In this document: positions 2 through 35,311 of the stretch, piece by piece
How the letters are laid out: every line of letters begins with the position of its first letter
How positions within the stretch are numbered: position 1 is the stretch's first letter
Assembly (NCBI GenBank): GCA_016649835.1
Contig: JAENWX010000003.1
Coordinates: 1-35,744 of the forward strand
Origin: Minisyncoccota bacterium
GTDB lineage: Bacteria > Patescibacteriota > Minisyncoccia > Phycocordibacterales > UBA9973
Reading direction: 5' to 3'
Length of the DNA stretch: 35,744 nucleotides
Translations under genes and position numbers: made by a program
Notes under the pieces: generated by a model
Told to the model about the DNA's origin: nothing
Database searches by the model: none
The model's input: the letters and a program-made list of their open reading frames with translations, nothing else

Positions 2-142
2 ACAAAATCAACAAGAAATATGTCTGGTTTAAAAATTGTTTACACGGAGGAATATCCTTCCTTAAAAGAAGCTCGTGCTCGTGAAGTATATTTCAAGACA
101 GCGGCTGGTAGAAAGTTTCTGAAGAAAAATTTGCGGTCGTAG
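2..142 (+). CDS. GIY-YIG nuclease family protein, C-terminal end (partial)
   Basis: The window opens inside a plus-strand reading frame giving ...TRNMSGLKIVYTEEYP then SLKEARARE and ending GRKFLKKNLRS. This is the typical tail of the small single-domain GIY-YIG (UPF0213/YhbQ-like) proteins: a short beta strand ending in Y-T-E, then a helix with A-x-x-R-E, then a basic end. The catalytic GIY and YIG strands lie upstream of the window, so activity cannot be judged. Family members are small predicted endonucleases of uncertain cellular role. The TAG stop (140-142) lies inside the acceptor stem and position-8 region of the tRNA-Asp gene, so the two genes overlap by about 10 bases. Family call from the tail alone is fairly good. 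Confidence 0.7.
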   Translation, partial: TKSTRNMSGLKIVYTEEYPSLKEARAREVYFKTAAGRKFLKKNLRS

Positions 143-206
143 CTCAACTGGTTAGAGCACTCGCCTGTCACGTGAGAGGTTGCCGGTTCAAGTCCGGTCG
201 ACCGCG
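133..206 (+). tRNA. tRNA-Asp (anticodon GTC)
   Basis: A full cloverleaf can be drawn. The acceptor GCGGTCG pairs with CGACCGC, the D-stem is GCTC/GAGC, the anticodon stem CTCGC/GTGAG carries loop CTGTCAC (anticodon GTC), and the T-stem is CCGG/CCGG with loop TTCAAGT. The discriminator is G, as expected for Asp. The 3' CCA is not encoded (GCAAA follows), so it must be added by a nucleotidyltransferase. The 5' end overlaps the stop of the preceding GIY-YIG gene, so the tRNA may be processed from a shared transcript. Confidence 0.97.
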
Positions 207-256
207 CAAATAATAAAAGCCTCCTTTTAAGGGGGCTTTTATTATTTGCGCGGTCG
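199..256 (+). terminator. Extended inverted repeat or terminator that includes the tRNA-Asp acceptor end
   Basis: Bases 199-224 and 231-256 are reverse complements over 26 bp with a single G.T pair, around a TTTTAA loop. The inner part (AAAAGCCTCC / GGGGGCTTTT) is an ordinary intrinsic terminator followed by T-rich sequence. The outer part extends through the tRNA 3' acceptor strand, so the sequence after the terminator is an exact antisense copy of CGACCGC plus the trailer. A plain terminator does not need this extension. Confidence 0.85.
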
Positions 257-463
257 ATAAAATGTGAAACATTTTAAGGACTTGAACGCCGGAGCAATAT
301 TTTGACAGTAGTTAAAATGCGAGGCGGTGCCCAGACAAATTTTTGTGTCGACAAAAATTTAGTCGCGGGAAAGATTCCGGTCGACATTCATATTTAGTCG
401 AGGTCAAGAAGCGCGAATGAGTACATTCGCCTACTTGGCACTCGCGCTCCGGTCGATACTCCC
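257..463 (+). repeat. tRNA-Asp 3' flank: antisense T-arm copy plus hairpin modules
   Basis: No coding potential is seen here. Right after the antisense acceptor copy comes a small hairpin (TAAAATG / CATTTTA, 258-276), then GGACTTGAAC (278-287), the exact antisense of the tRNA T-arm GTTCAAGTCC. Next is the module GGTGCCCAGAC (326-336), a 10-bp stem with loop GTCG, and AGTCGCGGG (361-369). The same module with a different stem follows the tRNA-Ser gene near 26474. The region ends with a hairpin closed by GCGCGA (411-416) and TCGCGC (442-447). Function unknown. Confidence 0.75.
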
Positions 464-2765: not shown

Positions 2766-4184
2766 TTATATATGTTTTTCAAAATCTTTCCCAATTGTAA
2801 AAAGGATATCCTCTCTCAAGAAAGGTGCCATTATATGAAAACCAAATGGTAGTCCTTCACTGTTTTTTCCTGATGGAATAGATATAGCTGGAATTCCGGC
2901 AATGTTAGCTGGAACTGAAAACAAATCAGCCAGGTACATACTAAGTGGATCTTTTGATTTTTCTCCAAATTTAAAAGGCATCATTGGTGAAGTTGGAGTA
3001 ACAATAGCATCAACTTCTAAAAATATTTTTGTTAGCTCATCTTTAATGGCATCGCGAACTTTTATGGCTGTATTGTAATAAGCATCATAATATCCATGAG
3101 AAAGAATATATGTTCCTAGTAATATTCTTCTGCGAACTTCTTTACCAAAACCTTTTCCTCTACTTTTTGTATAAACATCATAAAGATTTGCACCATCCTC
3201 GTGTAATCCATATCGAATACCATCATAACGTGCCAAGTTACTAGAAACTTCAGCGGGAGATATTATGTAATAAACAGCAAGAGAATATTTAATTAAAGGT
3301 AATGAAACATCTACTATTTCGTAACCTGCTTCTTCTAACTTTTTACAGCTTTCGTTAAAATTTTTAATTATTTCAGGATCAGTCCCCTCTGTACTTAAAA
3401 ATTCTCTAGGAATACCTATTTTCTTTTTAAGTGGCTGTGACTCTAATCTGTTTTCTTTTTTTATTGAAGTACTATCTTTTTCATCATAATCATTAATAGC
3501 GTTAAAAAGAATTTCAGCATCTCTTACTGTTTTACCAAAAGGACCTACCTGGTCGAGAGAGCTTCCCATGGAAATGATTCCAAAGCGAGAAACAGCTCCA
3601 TATGTTGGCTTGAGTCCTACTAGGCCACAATAAGATGCAGGCTGGCGTATTGAGCCTCCTGTGTCACTTCCTAGGGATACCAGGGCTCCATTCATAGCAA
3701 CTGCAGCTACTGAACCTCCCGAAGAACCACCTGGTACACGTGTTATATCTAGCGGGTTTTTTGTATTACCAAAGGCACTTGTCTCGGTGGAAGAACCCAT
3801 AGCAAATTCATCCATGTTTGTTCTTCCTAAAAATACTGCACCTTGTTTTTTGAGTTGTTTTACAATACCAGAATCATAAGTTGCTTTATAATTTTCAAGT
3901 ATCAAAGATGAAGCTGAAGCGATATGCCCTTCAAAAAGCATGTTGTCTTTTAGTGCCATAGGGATGCCTGTCATTAAAGTATCAGTGCCATTTTTAAACA
4001 TTTCTTCGGCAATTTTTGCTTGCTCTAATACATCATTATAAATTTCTCTATATGCATTTATCTCTTCATTTTTTTCTTTGATAACTTCCAAATAAGAATT
4101 TACTAATTGGGTTACTGTAAATTCACCGCTCTTAAGAGACGCATGGGCTTTTTCAATTGTTAAATTTTTTAAATCTATCTGCAT
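2766..4184 (-). CDS. gatA: Aspartyl/glutamyl-tRNA amidotransferase subunit A
   Basis: GatA hydrolyses glutamine and passes the ammonia to GatB, which converts Glu-tRNA(Gln) (and often Asp-tRNA(Asn)) to the amidated form in the cytoplasm. The 472 residues carry the amidase-signature Ser-cisSer-Lys triad: Lys in MALKDNM (about residue 78), cis-Ser in PGGSSGGSVAAVA (about 152) and the nucleophile Ser in GSDTGGSIRQPAS (about 177). The length is slightly below the usual 480-490. gatC lies directly upstream on the same strand with a gap of about 34 bp, as expected for an operon. gatB is not in the window. There are no signs of damage. Confidence 0.97.
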   Translation of the reverse strand: MQIDLKNLTIEKAHASLKSGEFTVTQLVNSYLEVIKEKNEEINAYREIYNDVLEQAKIAEEMFKNGTDTLMTGIPMALKDNMLFEGHIASASSLILENYKATYDSGIVKQLKKQGAVFLGRTNMDEFAMGSSTETSAFGNTKNPLDITRVPGGSSGGSVAAVAMNGALVSLGSDTGGSIRQPASYCGLVGLKPTYGAVSRFGIISMGSSLDQVGPFGKTVRDAEILFNAINDYDEKDSTSIKKENRLESQPLKKKIGIPREFLSTEGTDPEIIKNFNESCKKLEEAGYEIVDVSLPLIKYSLAVYYIISPAEVSSNLARYDGIRYGLHEDGANLYDVYTKSRGKGFGKEVRRRILLGTYILSHGYYDAYYNTAIKVRDAIKDELTKIFLEVDAIVTPTSPMMPFKFGEKSKDPLSMYLADLFSVPANIAGIPAISIPSGKNSEGLPFGFHIMAPFLREDILFTIGKDFEKHI

Positions 4185-4218
4185 TTTAGTTACTAGTATT
4201 TAACGGCTAGTTGCTAAC

Positions 4219-4518
4219 TTATAATATTTGTTTAACTTTTAGGAATCCATCTTGAGTGTCTGGCATTTCTGCAATAATCTTTTCTGTATATTCTCCCCGA
4301 CTATTTGCAACAACATCTTCACGCATTACATTGTGCAAAAAATAGTTTTCTGGTTTTTTATTTTCTAGGGAAATTTTCTCGCTCAATTTTAATGCCTCTT
4401 GCACCTGACCAACATATGCCAAAATAGGATCAAAATCTTTTGCGATTTTTGTCATTTCTTCATCGCTCATATCAATACGAGCTAAATCAGCTAATTTTTT
4501 AACATCTTCTAGTTGCAT
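4219..4518 (-). CDS. gatC: Aspartyl/glutamyl-tRNA amidotransferase subunit C
   Basis: GatC is a small helical protein that wraps around GatA and GatB and stabilises the amidotransferase. The protein MQLEDVKKLADLARI ... FDPILAYVGQVQEAL ... MREDVV ... FLKVKQIL has the usual N-terminal helix pair and the conserved R-x-D-x-V motif before the C-terminal extension, and its 99 residues are normal length. The ORF track starts 13 codons earlier, but MFYIIIKICYSKH is not conserved in the family. The ATG at 4518 lies 6 nt after a TATTCT box, consistent with leaderless transcripts elsewhere in the window, so I chose it. Followed by gatA. Confidence 0.93.
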   Translation of the reverse strand: MQLEDVKKLADLARIDMSDEEMTKIAKDFDPILAYVGQVQEALKLSEKISLENKKPENYFLHNVMREDVVANSRGEYTEKIIAEMPDTQDGFLKVKQIL

Positions 4519-4562
4519 ATGTTTAGAATAACATATTTTGATAATTATATAAAACAAAAAAC

Positions 4563-4620
4563 GTTATTTACTTTTTACATATTTCTTACGCTATCGCGCA
4601 CAAATGTGTAAAAAGTAAAT
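4563..4620. terminator. Imperfect palindrome or terminator 3' of the Cas2-like gene
   Basis: Arms TTTACTTTTTACAT and ATGTGTAAAAAGTAAA enclose ATTTCTTACGCTATCGCGCACAA. The inner sequence resembles the perfect palindrome on the other side of the same gene (5125-5158): both contain ACATATTTC followed by TACGCTAT and a diverged right half. It probably acts as terminator for the minus-strand gene and may be a degenerate copy of the same element. Confidence 0.65.
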
Positions 4621-4622
4621 TA

Positions 4623-5105
4623 TTATCTACCATCATATCCTTTCTCTAGTTTAAAAGTTTTTAGATTATCCTTTAATCCAATTTTTTTGACATAGTCCAT
4701 AAATTCTTTAGGTAAAGGTGACGGGCCAACCCAAACACTTCTTTGAATCATAATGTATCCAAATTTATGTAAATGTCTACGAAACCAATCCCTCTCCGGC
4801 TTTTTATCTTCTGGAATATCATACATAACCAATAGGTTTTTTGGTGCATTTTGAGGATATGAAAATTCAAAAATCTTTTGTGACAATAATTTATCTTTGA
4901 GATATTTTTGACCTTTTTTGGTAAGAATAATATTTTTATCCTCTGTGCTTAAATAGCCTTCATCACAAAGTGAATAATATGCATTTTTAATAGATTTTGA
5001 ATTCTTATTTTTAAAAACTGGTAAACCAAAAATATTTACATCGATGCCTTTATAATTAGCAAATTTGGTATTAAATAAATTAAGAAGATCTTGTTTTATT
5101 GTCAT
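4623..5105 (-). CDS. PaaX-like protein with HTH and Cas2-like ferredoxin-fold domain
   Basis: Residues about 1-75 look like a winged helix (KNAYYSLCDEGYLSTED then NIILTKKGQKYL). Residues about 88-160 match the Cas2/PaaX C-terminal fold: a first strand NLLVMYDIPEDKK, then WFRRHLHKFGYIMIQRSVWVGP, then LKTFKLEKG. The Asp in the first strand (V-M-Y-D-I-P) is the position of the Cas2 metal ligand. No cas1 or CRISPR array is in the window. PaaX-type repressors share this layout, so a DNA-binding regulator or a stand-alone nuclease is more likely than a CRISPR adaptation protein. The ATG lies 6 nt after a TGATATAAT box and related palindromes flank the gene, so autoregulation is possible. Confidence 0.8.
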   Translation of the reverse strand: MTIKQDLLNLFNTKFANYKGIDVNIFGLPVFKNKNSKSIKNAYYSLCDEGYLSTEDKNIILTKKGQKYLKDKLLSQKIFEFSYPQNAPKNLLVMYDIPEDKKPERDWFRRHLHKFGYIMIQRSVWVGPSPLPKEFMDYVKKIGLKDNLKTFKLEKGYDGR

Positions 5106-5111
5106 AATTTT

Positions 5112-5120
5112 ATTATATCA
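5112..5120 (-). promoter_or_regulatory. Extended -10 promoter TGATATAAT, leaderless configuration
   Basis: Minus-strand TGATATAAT ends 6 nt before the ATG at 5105, so transcription should start at or beside the start codon. No Shine-Dalgarno site is present. Confidence 0.7.
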
Positions 5121-5124
5121 TAAT

Positions 5125-5158
5125 ACATATTTCGTACGCTATAGCGTACGAAATATGT
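5125..5158. promoter_or_regulatory. Perfect 34-bp palindrome upstream of the Cas2-like gene
   Basis: Perfect palindrome with arms ACATATTTCGTACGCTA and its complement, immediately upstream of the -10 box of the PaaX/Cas2-like gene. It could be that protein's operator. Its central TACGCTATAGCGTA is shared with the palindrome at 23378-23419 and, in degenerate form, with 4563-4620. Confidence 0.7.
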
Positions 5159-5190
5159 AAATTAAAATAAATACAATATAAATATTTTGT

Positions 5191-5226
5191 TTAAGTAGGA
5201 TTAAGTAGGATTAAGTAGGATTAAGT
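5191..5226. repeat. Tandem decamer TTAAGTAGGA, 3.6 copies
   Basis: Three exact copies of TTAAGTAGGA followed by TTAAGTG. The repeat lies in the 235-bp non-coding interval between ligA and the Cas2-like gene, which otherwise holds only the palindromes and the ligA terminator. Confidence 0.9.
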
Positions 5227-5280
5227 GTAATAAATGAAGCTTAAATCATTTATAAAAATTTATTTTGGAAACAATTAAGA

Positions 5281-5315
5281 AATACAATGATTAAAATATT
5301 TTTAATCATTGTATT
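5281..5315 (-). terminator. Hairpin terminator of ligA
   Basis: A 16-bp perfect stem (AATACAATGATTAAAA and complement) with a TAT loop, 25 bp downstream of the ligA stop. It is AT-rich, so strength is uncertain, and the palindrome could act in both directions. Confidence 0.65.
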
Positions 5316-5340
5316 TGGAAAAAATTGATAAATATAATAC

Positions 5341-25625: not shown

Positions 25626-25744
25626 GATTATTAAATTTTAATGTTTTTATTTAGTTATATTATACACTTTTAGGTGAAATTGTCAAGATACATATATTCC
25701 ACCCTCTTTACTCAAAAAGACCTGTATTTTAAAAGACTAATTAT

Positions 25745-26055
25745 ATAAGAACGAAAAATCTTTCGAATCTTGCACGCACTAGGTGAGACCGTGAGTACAC
25801 TTTTCGCCTATTACATAGGCAGGTACTTTTCCGCCTATGGCAAGGAAAAGTCTTTCGAATCTTCCTCACGGTTCGATTTACTAATCGCACACGCGAGACC
25901 GTGAATACACTTTTCGGTCCCTACTGGACCAGTACACCTTTTCGTTTCGGTTAACACCGAAAAACGAAAAGCTTTTCGAATCTCGCACGAAAGCCAAGCA
26001 GTTGGCTTTCTCGTCTCCACATATTTAAAAAGCCCTAGCGGGTTTTTTAAATATG
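25745..26055 (-). repeat. tRNA-Ser(GCU) 3' flank: antisense tRNA copy and repeat modules
   Basis: No credible gene is present. Reading from the tRNA leftward: an inverted repeat/terminator copies the acceptor end (26015-26060). A hairpin GAAAGCCA/TGGCTTTC with loop AGCAGT (plus strand, 25989-26010) follows, then TTCGAATCTCGC (25975-25986), which equals the tRNA T-arm in antisense orientation. Three modules built on TTTCGAATCT and GAGACCGTGARTACAC then follow (25967-25982, 25895-25916, 25846-25862, 25785-25806, 25755-25770). One contains ACTGGACCAGT. Much of this sequence is shared with the flanks of the other tRNAs. Confidence 0.8.
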
Positions 26056-26142
26056 CGGAGCCGGCGAGATTCGAACTCGCGAGGGGTTTTATCCCCTGCA
26101 TCTTTAGCAAAGATGTACCTTAGACCACTCGGACACGGCTCC
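26056..26142 (-). tRNA. tRNA-Ser (anticodon GCT)
   Basis: Acceptor GGAGCCG/CGGCTCC, anticodon stem CATCT/AGATG with loop TTGCTAA (GCT), long variable arm AGGGGATAAAACCCCT and T-arm GCGAG-TTCGAAT-CTCGC. The discriminator is G, as for Ser. No CCA is encoded (GCATAT follows). It reads AGC and AGU codons and is divergent from a second tRNA-Ser gene 90 bp away. Confidence 0.97.
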
Positions 26143-26232: not shown

Positions 26233-26319
26233 GGATGAGTGGCCGAGAGGCTTAAGGCAGCGGTTTACTAAACCGCCGTCCCTTTACCGGGACCGTGAGT
26301 TCGAATCTCACCTCATCCG
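26233..26319 (+). tRNA. tRNA-Ser with unusual anticodon ACT
   Basis: Acceptor GGATGAG/CTCATCC, D-arm GCC/GGC, anticodon stem GCGGT/ACCGC with a 7-nt loop TTACTAA, variable arm GTCCC/GGGAC, T-arm GTGAG-TTCGAAT-CTCAC and discriminator G. The long variable arm and G73 identify it as Ser. The loop places ACT as anticodon, expected to read AGU; A at position 34 is very rare for this box and would duplicate tRNA-Ser(GCU) next door. No CCA encoded. Confidence 0.85.
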
Positions 26320-26324
26320 CATGT

Positions 26325-26357
26325 TGAAAAAATTGCCCCTATTAAGGGGCTTTTTTC
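26325..26357 (+). terminator. Terminator of tRNA-Ser(ACU)
   Basis: Stem TTGCCCCT/AGGGGC around ATTA followed by TTTTTT. It is nested inside a larger inverted repeat: CATCCGCAT (26314-26322) and ATGCGGATG (26360-26368). Confidence 0.87.
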
Positions 26358-26640
26358 TTATGCGGATGCGAAGACGTGAACTGCTCATTTAGTAAAATGA
26401 CCTACTGGGTTCACGTCTGGGTGAGATTCGAACAGCGGAGTCATATTTTGTTAGCAAACAAAATAGACGAGCTGGTGCCCAGACAAAACTTTTTGACGAA
26501 AAAGTTTTAGTCGCGGGCGAAACATGTACTCATGGTCTCGGGAGGAAGATTCGAAAGACTTTTCCTTGCCGTAGACGGAAATACCTCATTTAGTAAAATG
26601 ACCTACTGGGCGCCGCAGTATTGGCGAATCTCACCGCCTC
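26358..26640 (+). repeat. tRNA-Ser(ACU) 3' flank: antisense tRNA copy and repeat modules
   Basis: Order: antisense acceptor ATGCGGATG (26360-26368); hairpin AGACGTGAAC/GTTCACGTCT (26372-26381/26409-26418); GTGAGATTCGAAC (26421-26433), the exact antisense of the tRNA T-arm; GGTGCCCAGAC, a 10-bp stem with GACG loop, AGTCGCGGG (26474-26517); and a block around AAGATTCGAAAGACTTTTCC that repeats one in the tRNA-Ser(GCU) flank. A 26-bp word ending GACCTACTGGG occurs twice exactly (26384-26409, 26585-26610). No coding sequence seen. Confidence 0.82.
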
Positions 26641-34834: not shown

Positions 34835-35181
34835 GATGTGGCTCTAGGACCGCGAGTACGCAGTAGGTCAGTACTGGACCAGTACAAATTTTATGGCGGA
34901 CACTGTCGTCAGGAATAATTTGCTTTTCGTCAAAAGCAAATTTTCACGACCCTCAATCAGTAGATTGACCTACTGGGCGACTCGGCTCGTCAGCCTCCGT
35001 CTTTATTTCTTTTATTTAAAAAGAAATAACCCTACTGGACCAGTACACCTTTTCGAACCATAGACGAGGACCGTGAGTACACTTTTCGGCTACCACGTAG
35101 CCAGGTACTTTTCGCTCCGATATCAATCGGAGAACGAAAAGTCTTTCGAATCCTAGACGCAGGCAAAGCAGTTTGCCTGCT
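34835..35181 (-). repeat. tRNA-Ile 3' flank: antisense tRNA copy and repeat modules
   Basis: Reading leftward from the tRNA: a hairpin GCAGGCAA/TTGCCTGC with loop AGCAGT (35159-35180); TTCGAATCCTAGA (35145-35157), which is the tRNA T-arm in antisense orientation; a module with GACCGTGAGTACACTTTTCG (35069-35088); a word containing ACTGGACCAGT identical to the tRNA-Ser(GCU) flank (35032-35055); a hairpin AATTTGCTTTT-CGTC-AAAAGCAAATT (34917-34942); and the palindrome GTACTGGACCAGTAC (34871-34885). No ORF with coding character; the 64-aa track ORF is an artefact. Confidence 0.8.
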
Positions 35182-35245
35182 AGGGCGGACCATATTAAAA
35201 AACCACACACTTTTCAGTGTGTGGTTTTTTAATATGGTCCGCCCT
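35182..35245 (-). terminator. 29-bp perfect inverted repeat including the tRNA-Ile 3' end
   Basis: Left arm 35182-35210 and right arm 35217-35245 are perfect complements. The inner part is a terminator (ACCACACAC/GTGTGTGGT plus T-run); the outer part reproduces the acceptor strand and CCA of tRNA-Ile. Confidence 0.88.
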
Positions 35246-35311
35246 CTAGGATTCGAACCTAGGACCCCAGAGGTATAAGCTCTGTGCTCTAACCAACTGA
35301 GCTAAGGACGG
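35235..35311 (-). tRNA. tRNA-Ile (anticodon TAT) with encoded CCA
   Basis: Acceptor CCGTCCT/AGGGCGG, D-arm GCTC/GAGC, anticodon stem CAGAG/CTCTG with loop CTTATAC (TAT), T-arm CTAGG-TTCGAAT-CCTAG and discriminator A followed by CCA. It reads AUA directly with U34, whereas most bacteria use CAU modified to lysidine. It is the only tRNA of the four with an encoded CCA. It lies downstream of ftsH on the same strand. Confidence 0.93.

Follow-up and report, generated by a model that had tools for sequence, protein, structure and literature searches.

A tRNA-Asp gene in a Patescibacteria genome is followed by DNA in which part of the gene's own 3′ end is repeated in antisense, which raises the question of what this copy is and by what means it could match its tRNA. 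The window, i.e. the whole stretch of DNA that was analysed (35,744 nucleotides), represents contig 21 of a 56-contig, 735-kb genome. The host order consists of tiny, mostly uncultured bacteria, whose genomes are among the smallest known bacterial ones.

Anatomy of the tRNA-Asp flank

The features observed at the tRNA-Asp locus, together with related elements elsewhere in the window, are listed in Table 1. The tRNA gene runs into a palindrome, the arms of which (198-226 and 229-257) are 97% complementary and separated by a 2-nt loop. The arm on the tRNA side takes in the acceptor 3′ strand CGACCGC (199-205), the discriminator G206 and C207; the terminator-like core of the palindrome consists of CCTCC/GGGGG followed by a T-rich arm, and the antisense acceptor copy, GCGCGGTCGA, is located at 248-257. 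An earlier note on this DNA had described a terminator stem that reaches into the acceptor strand, which is indeed the case, although the length of 26 bp that it gave has to be corrected to 29 positions.

The inverted acceptor copy is separated from the inverted T-arm copy by a hairpin, designated here as hp1, which occupies the position held at other tRNAs by AGC..AACTGCTT..GCG hairpins. Downstream of hp1, GGACTTGAAC (278-287) was shown to be the exact reverse complement of GTTCAAGTCC (186-195), which includes the T-loop TTCAAGT (187-193). The claims that the T-arm is copied in antisense after the TAAAATG/CATTTTA hairpin and that the flank mirrors this particular T-loop were thus borne out, with the restriction that the T-stem part of the copy is incomplete (GG instead of ACCGG, the rest being replaced by the hairpin). 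When positions 184-300 were folded as ssDNA, the predicted structure was a three-way junction composed of exactly the palindrome, hp1 and inverted-copy parts (−47.8 kcal/mol, z = −13, with none of 200 shuffles being equally good). The core that follows (288-375) is common to tRNA-Ser(ACT) in the window, the tRNA-Glu element of genome G018 (L214) and tRNA-Asp of genomes G005 and G010.

Table 1. Features of the tRNA-Asp locus and related elements in the window
Feature	Position	Strand	Remarks
tRNA-Asp (GTC)	133..207	+	ARAGORN; Rfam RF00005, 68.3 bits
Direct copy 1 of the 3′ end: T-loop	187-193		within tRNA-Asp
Direct copy 1: T-stem 3′ strand	194-198		within tRNA-Asp
Direct copy 1: acceptor 3′ strand	199-205		within tRNA-Asp
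Direct copy 1: discriminator	206		within tRNA-Asp
Palindrome with 29-nt arms	198..257	.	acceptor strand, terminator-like core and inverted acceptor copy
hp1 hairpin	258..276	.	TAAAATG (258-264) / CATTTTA (270-276)
Inverted T-arm copy GGACTTGAAC	278..287	-	exact complement of 186-195
Type-B core module	288..375	+	GCCGGAG..hairpin..GAGGCGGTGCCCAGACAAA..hairpin..TTTAGTCGCGGG
Direct copy 2 of the tRNA 3′ end	376..385	+	TCCGGTCGAC, decayed downstream
Remnant of second tandem unit	390..447	+	TTTAGTCGAGGTCAAGAAG..ATTCGCCTACTTGGC..CTCGCGC, identified against L095, where one unit is present intact
Further direct copy of the tRNA end	448..456	+	TCCGGTCGA
Same family, 3′ of tRNA-Ser(GCT)	25740..26054	-	tRNA at 26055-26142 (-)
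Same family, 3′ of tRNA-Ser(ACT)	26321..26640	+	tRNA at 26233-26320 (+)
Same family, 3′ of tRNA-Ile(TAT)	34840..35234	-	tRNA at 35235-35311 (-)

A family of elements in the source genome

A common architecture was observed in the 3′ flanks of at least 22 of the 35 tRNA genes, and of the tmRNA gene, of the source genome. The tRNA is followed by a spacer, which is usually a bidirectional terminator, then by an inverted copy of the acceptor end, hp1 (of the AGC..AACTGCTT..GCG type), an inverted T-arm extending to T54 or G53 and a conserved hairpin core, of which there are several types; the unit is completed by the tRNA 3′ end, copied once more in direct orientation. The inverted copy spans the T-loop to the discriminator, is split by the hairpin and lies between two direct copies. 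Units measure about 114-190 bp, which leaves no room for a gene, and no cassette ORF was found inside them.

Type-A cores are represented by a long hairpin (ACTTTTCG..CGAAAAGT or variants), a 5- to 6-pair hairpin with a GTR loop and a mini-hairpin, GTGTACTCAC, while GGTGCCCAGACAAA is present in type-B cores, which were observed at Ser, Glu and Asp elements both in this genome and in others. A covariance model built from eleven type-A units (R1), which detects mainly type-A cores, matched 47 units in the source genome; those without an adjoining tRNA are located at contig ends or at sites where an island has come between tRNA-Gln(CTG) or tRNA-Trp and its element (L058, L060). The hp1 pattern was found 12 times, in all cases at element positions, compared with no occurrence of the reversed control. 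Within the window, the tRNA-Ser(GCT) element comprises two type-A units (25892-25987 and 25782-25866) and a truncated third, the tRNA-Ser(ACT) element a type-B unit and then a further unit ending in CGAATCTCACC, and the tRNA-Ile(TAT) element a type-A unit (35064-35157) with further units to 34843. The tRNA-Asp flank is one of more than 40 copies, insertion-like and with conserved cores, a fact missed by the earlier note, as were the additional copy of the tRNA end in direct orientation and the absence of the element from about half of the orthologous tRNA-Asp loci.

A small sub-motif (a stem with CCTACTGGG) was observed within several different hairpin loops, and could be taken for an inserted module in its own right (window positions 26380-26409, 26582-26610 and 34961-34977, and the terminator loop 3′ of tRNA-Asp at L100). 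What appears to be a full inverted copy of tRNA-Lys at the end of contig C50 (L003) was set aside as a probable fold-back artefact of assembly, since the sequence expected to follow, with a normal element, is present at the end of contig C16 (L041).

Filled and empty orthologous sites

Presence and absence of the element were both observed at orthologous sites, the filled sites exhibiting clean inserts that begin exactly where the tRNA gene ends and that duplicate the tRNA end. At tRNA-Asp, L098 differs from L097 by a clean 148-bp insert that ends in the duplicate tRNA end, the next 220 bp being 90% identical starting at base 1, and L095 carries a 186-bp insert compared with L099, L113 and L116. 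A 125-bp insert distinguishes L109 from L117 at tRNA-Thr. At L112, compared with L117 and L110, an insert of 114 bp lies between tRNA-Met and tRNA-Asp (flanks 94% identical); this tRNA-Met element is not accompanied by a terminator, indicating that an intrinsic terminator alone is insufficient to account for the repeat. Approximately half of the tRNA-Asp orthologues possess only a plain terminator in place of the element. Units may also occur in tandem, as exemplified by three equal-scoring units with 134-bp spacing at a tRNA-Ser gene of genome G002. The direction of change is not proven by these comparisons, since filled and empty pairs fit deletion between direct repeats equally well.

Tracking of the resident tRNA

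The central claim of the earlier note, that the copy follows its own tRNA, was supported by the comparison of orthologues set out beforehand as well as by counts across tRNA/tmRNA flanks. Among the 11 tRNA-Asp orthologues that bear the element, the base matching R57 of the resident T-loop was present in ten, with L105 as the single exception: TTCAAGT is accompanied by CTTGAA, TTCAAAT by ATTTGAA (L106) and TTCGAGT by CTCGAA (L108). An extra T is present in the loop copy at three of the tRNA-Asp orthologues (L098, L107 and L112). The antisense T-arm 12-mer of the resident tRNA, allowing at most one mismatch, was found in 124 of 291 tRNA/tmRNA 3′ flanks, far beyond chance when compared with 2.1% for the 12-mer of another tRNA in the same flanks; upstream, the own 12-mer was found in only 2 of 291 flanks. 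In flanks with an exact T-stem copy, all seven bases of the own T-loop were matched in 68 of 92 cases, compared with 23% upon shuffling, and rare T-loops were mirrored too (TCCGAGT of Ala, TCCGATT of Gly/Thr and TTCAAAT of His/Tyr).

In 68 of 120 element flanks, a second direct copy reaching 10 nt or more was detected, compared with 1.7% for other tRNAs. The T-loop is missing from most of these second copies, yet is mirrored in the inverted copy. The same core can be associated with differently tailored arms, as illustrated by the tRNA-Tyr and tRNA-Lys elements of genome G008, the cores of which are 92% identical. In the source genome, the tRNA-Gly(CCC) element combines an inverted acceptor of other Gly tRNAs with an inverted T-arm near that of its own tRNA, suggestive of an element that was transferred and then rewritten in part. 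Vertical inheritance by tRNA type was rejected, as cores fail to cluster by tRNA.

Another explanation, namely ordinary terminators with chance similarity to tRNA sequence, can draw on the normal bidirectional terminator that is present in many tRNA flanks. It is incompatible with the tracking statistics, the conserved cores and the insertion polymorphism and is refuted by the shuffled-tRNA controls, and is thus considered practically eliminated.

Pairing at the level of DNA

Covariation of the paired positions was shown to be strong, as both partners had changed in 21 of 28 pairs (0 of 500 shuffles). Across 285 hairpins, 2221 Watson-Crick pairs were counted, with 9 top-strand G.U pairs, 9 A.C pairs and 28 other mismatches, whereas the acceptor and T-stems of the tRNAs at the same loci, which served as a control, contained 133 G.U compared with 18 A.C pairs. 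The hairpin set and the tRNA control passed different hairpin filters; the symmetry of G.U and A.C within the hairpins is independent of the filter. The near-absence of G.U, without strand bias, therefore indicates that pairing is maintained as DNA and not as antisense RNA. Template switching during replication has been described as a source of perfect stems and of homogenized inverted-repeat arms (PMC8794818, PMC8604942).

A read-through or antisense transcript that pairs with the T-arm and acceptor of the tRNA, thereby controlling its maturation or stability, would account for arms complementary to each tRNA, for the strong covariation and for the conserved loops. However, such an RNA would be expected to accept G.U pairs, and these are not tolerated on either strand, unlike in the tRNA control, so that the antisense-RNA reading is disfavoured by this test. 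It is further weakened by the terminator-like hairpin that in most cases lies between the tRNA and the copy, by the many tRNA-Asp orthologues without an element and by the position of the L112 insert inside the tRNA-Met/tRNA-Asp cluster. Except for tRNA, no Rfam family scored above the gathering threshold, and permissive thresholds yielded only tRNA and chance matches, meaning that neither G.U-tolerant stems nor a known-family match, as criteria for a structured RNA, were met. Regulation by such a transcript is accordingly regarded as improbable.

Distribution and genomic location

Type-A units were detected in 46 of 61 related genomes, while in a phylum-wide draw of 240 genomes, which was filtered more strictly and limited to E-values up to 1e-5, matches were restricted to the genus, family and order of the source genome. 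Carriers include Nomura-, Taylor- and Vogelbacteria and other Paceibacterota MAGs. Two identical-scoring units were also observed in a MAG labelled Rickettsiales (L196, JAQTXT010000081.1), probably because a Patescibacteria contig was placed in the wrong bin.

In six whole genomes, nearly all matches were observed directly 3′ of a tRNA or tmRNA gene and on the same strand. The remaining matches were classed only where inspected, and these exceptions correspond to contig ends, tRNA pseudogenes (L238, L242), decayed copies (L235, L213) and sites at which an island lies between the tRNA and the element (L214, L215, L227, L231, L233), the latter keeping their tRNA-specific arms. The pseudogenes that still bear an element at their 3′ side are the 5′ half of a tRNA-Arg(GCG) and a tRNA-Ser(GCT) without its acceptor end.

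The very high occupancy of tRNA genes could suggest a DNA structure that benefits the host, either as a decoy or barrier protecting tRNA 3′ ends from islands or as a mark of replication or transcription boundaries, and these tRNA ends are indeed used as integration sites by islands that carry large serine recombinases. Presence of the element is, however, patchy among close relatives, and it does not prevent integration, because islands integrate between the tRNA and the element. A protective or boundary function is thus thought very improbable.

Candidate enzymes and islands

No mobilising enzyme was identified, and the way in which the element moves is inferred and not demonstrated. Tyrosine recombinases (PF00589) were matched in 58 of the 61 genomes searched and are single-copy in most, but no match was obtained in the source genome (G000), which is the most element-rich and about 92% complete, and they were consequently rejected as driver. 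Y1 transposases, present in 37 of 61 genomes, co-occur with the element positively but loosely: outside the genus, both were found in 15 genomes, the element only in 7, Y1 only in 3 and neither in 12. These counts were not corrected for phylogeny, and R1 is mostly blind beyond type A. Y1 was not found in genomes G023, G033, G036 and G046, which have 9-12 units, and no R1 unit was located beside those Y1 genes for which positions were compared; the co-occurrence is inconsistent and gives no firm support to Y1 as driver. Large serine recombinases were dismissed as driver on the grounds that their islands take up positions next to the element, and that tRNAs lacking it are targeted as well.

Large serine recombinase (PF07508) genes were observed in convergent orientation, directly adjoining tRNA 3′ ends (L117 1536-2984 (-); L118; G000:C44:18772-19032 beside tRNA-Trp C44:18017; L060 and L058). 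At the other end of these islands, short displaced tRNA fragments lie beside a recurring GTTCCAAC..AACCACAC motif. According to Islander (2014; PMC4383910), only tyrosine integrases were known to target tDNAs. An island rich in genes lies between tRNA-Gln(CTG) and its hairpin element, and probably another between tRNA-Trp and its own (G000:C36:7665-17393 (L208) and G000:C2 (L209)); the C2 ORF at 3935-5323 resembles a Shedu-type defence nuclease by eye, without further support.

The element might alternatively be an ssDNA-folded recombination site or integrative element, in which the folded strand uses the inverted and direct tRNA copies to rebuild a double-stranded attachment site that a recombinase joins to the tRNA T-loop. 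This proposal is consistent with the start of the inverted copy at T54 or G53, i.e. at one end of the 7-nt T-loop, with T-loop and T-stem regions being known crossover sites of tDNA islands (PMC4383910), with the folded L098 element, which forms a stem of the tRNA 3′ half and a side hairpin, and with tandem arrays. Conversely, no recombinase shows a clean correlation with the element, the core pattern was found in no viral contig, and a recombination site alone leaves unexplained how different tRNA-matched arms come to flank the same cores. It is therefore considered rather unlikely, without being dismissed.

Proposed mode of spread and maintenance

On balance, and with moderate confidence, we favour the interpretation that the elements constitute a family of short, gene-less, hairpin-forming DNA at tRNA and tmRNA 3′ ends of one Patescibacteria order, with spread, rewriting and slippage as inferred processes. 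Direct evidence covers the anatomy, the location, the match to the resident tRNA, the presence or absence at orthologous sites and the DNA-level pairing. In ssDNA, the inverted copy can pair either with the tRNA, giving the three-way junction, or with the second direct copy. Cores may spread between tRNA genes through an unidentified trans-acting enzyme or through recombination, and fold-back (template-switch) copying of the resident tRNA may generate or rewrite the arms. If the fold-back partner is the tRNA gene itself, as we propose, this would explain why the T-loop is mirrored although it is missing from most second copies. Inverted pairing would also bring the two direct copies together, and slippage between them could result in precise loss of a unit or in tandem duplication; as such slippage would be precise, the tRNA would never be damaged. 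The conservation of cores and loops goes beyond what template switching alone can account for and suggests the involvement of a protein or of a functional fold. A bolder possibility, put forward tentatively and at somewhat less than even odds, is that of a new class of mobile DNA that rebuilds its own ends from any tRNA beside which it inserts, in which a gene-less, ssDNA-folding core inserts at tRNA/tmRNA T-loops and both duplicates and inversely copies the target end, so that essentially every tRNA gene can be occupied and none is broken.

Relation to known systems

REP/BIME sequences with their RAYT (Y1) transposases, MITEs and Rickettsia palindromic elements are short, gene-less, palindromic and multi-copy, and are possibly mobilised in trans. 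The present elements share the first four properties and may likewise be mobilised in trans, and Y1 proteins are common in these genomes. In a REP/BIME-RAYT system, the cognate Y1 gene is typically bordered by the repeats. Nevertheless, they are confined to tRNA/tmRNA 3′ ends, and so do not meet the REP/BIME criterion of dispersed intergenic location; their arms are tailored to the tRNA, no adjacency to Y1 was seen among the positions compared and no Rfam match was obtained.

tDNA islands (Islander; PMC4383910) resemble the element in their location at tRNA/tmRNA 3′ ends, with an intact tRNA on one side and a displaced fragment on the other, and in forming tandem arrays. The criterion of an intact tDNA with a displaced direct fragment is met, whereas those of an integrase and of a length of at least 2 kb are not: the element is about 0.11-0.2 kb, lacks genes and an integrase, and adds an inverted, hairpin-split third copy of the tRNA end. 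As Islander excludes anything below 2 kb or with an inverted fragment (PMC4383910), it would discard these elements.

Integron attC sites and the ssDNA hairpin attP of CTX phage (XerC/XerD-dependent integration of filamentous phages, PMC4246890) also have inverted repeats, side hairpins and arrays, and the element could similarly fold from one strand into a recombination site. It differs in that it has no gene cassette and that no dedicated integrase was found (no PF00589 match in the source genome and no cassette ORF inside units, so that the attC criterion of a linked integrase and gene cassettes is not fulfilled); moreover, its arms consist of host tRNA sequence and vary from site to site. 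Template-switch palindromes (PMC8794818, PMC8604942), including the coding palindromes of Nematomorpha (PMC6649704), are likewise perfect inverted repeats kept identical in DNA, but they do not form a family of inserts that have conserved cores and duplicate their target.

No description of the family was found in the open-access literature, subscription papers and preprints having been outside the search. Because neither an Rfam family nor a paper matches it, the size and integrase features of tDNA islands are lacking and REP-like dispersal is absent, we call the family categorically new, its means of movement being unknown, with the caveat that the literature search covered open-access sources only.

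Implications

The element serves as a warning that compensatory covariation alone is no proof of a functional RNA. If the interpretation favoured here is true, the element would partly account for assembly breaks at tRNA genes in such genomes. It would also offer a natural system in which to follow target-derived ends, duplication and loss driven by DNA hairpins, and harmless use of tRNA genes by a parasite. In some of these genomes, a hitherto unrecognized element, its arms continually matched to the host gene, would then be present at over half of the tRNA genes.
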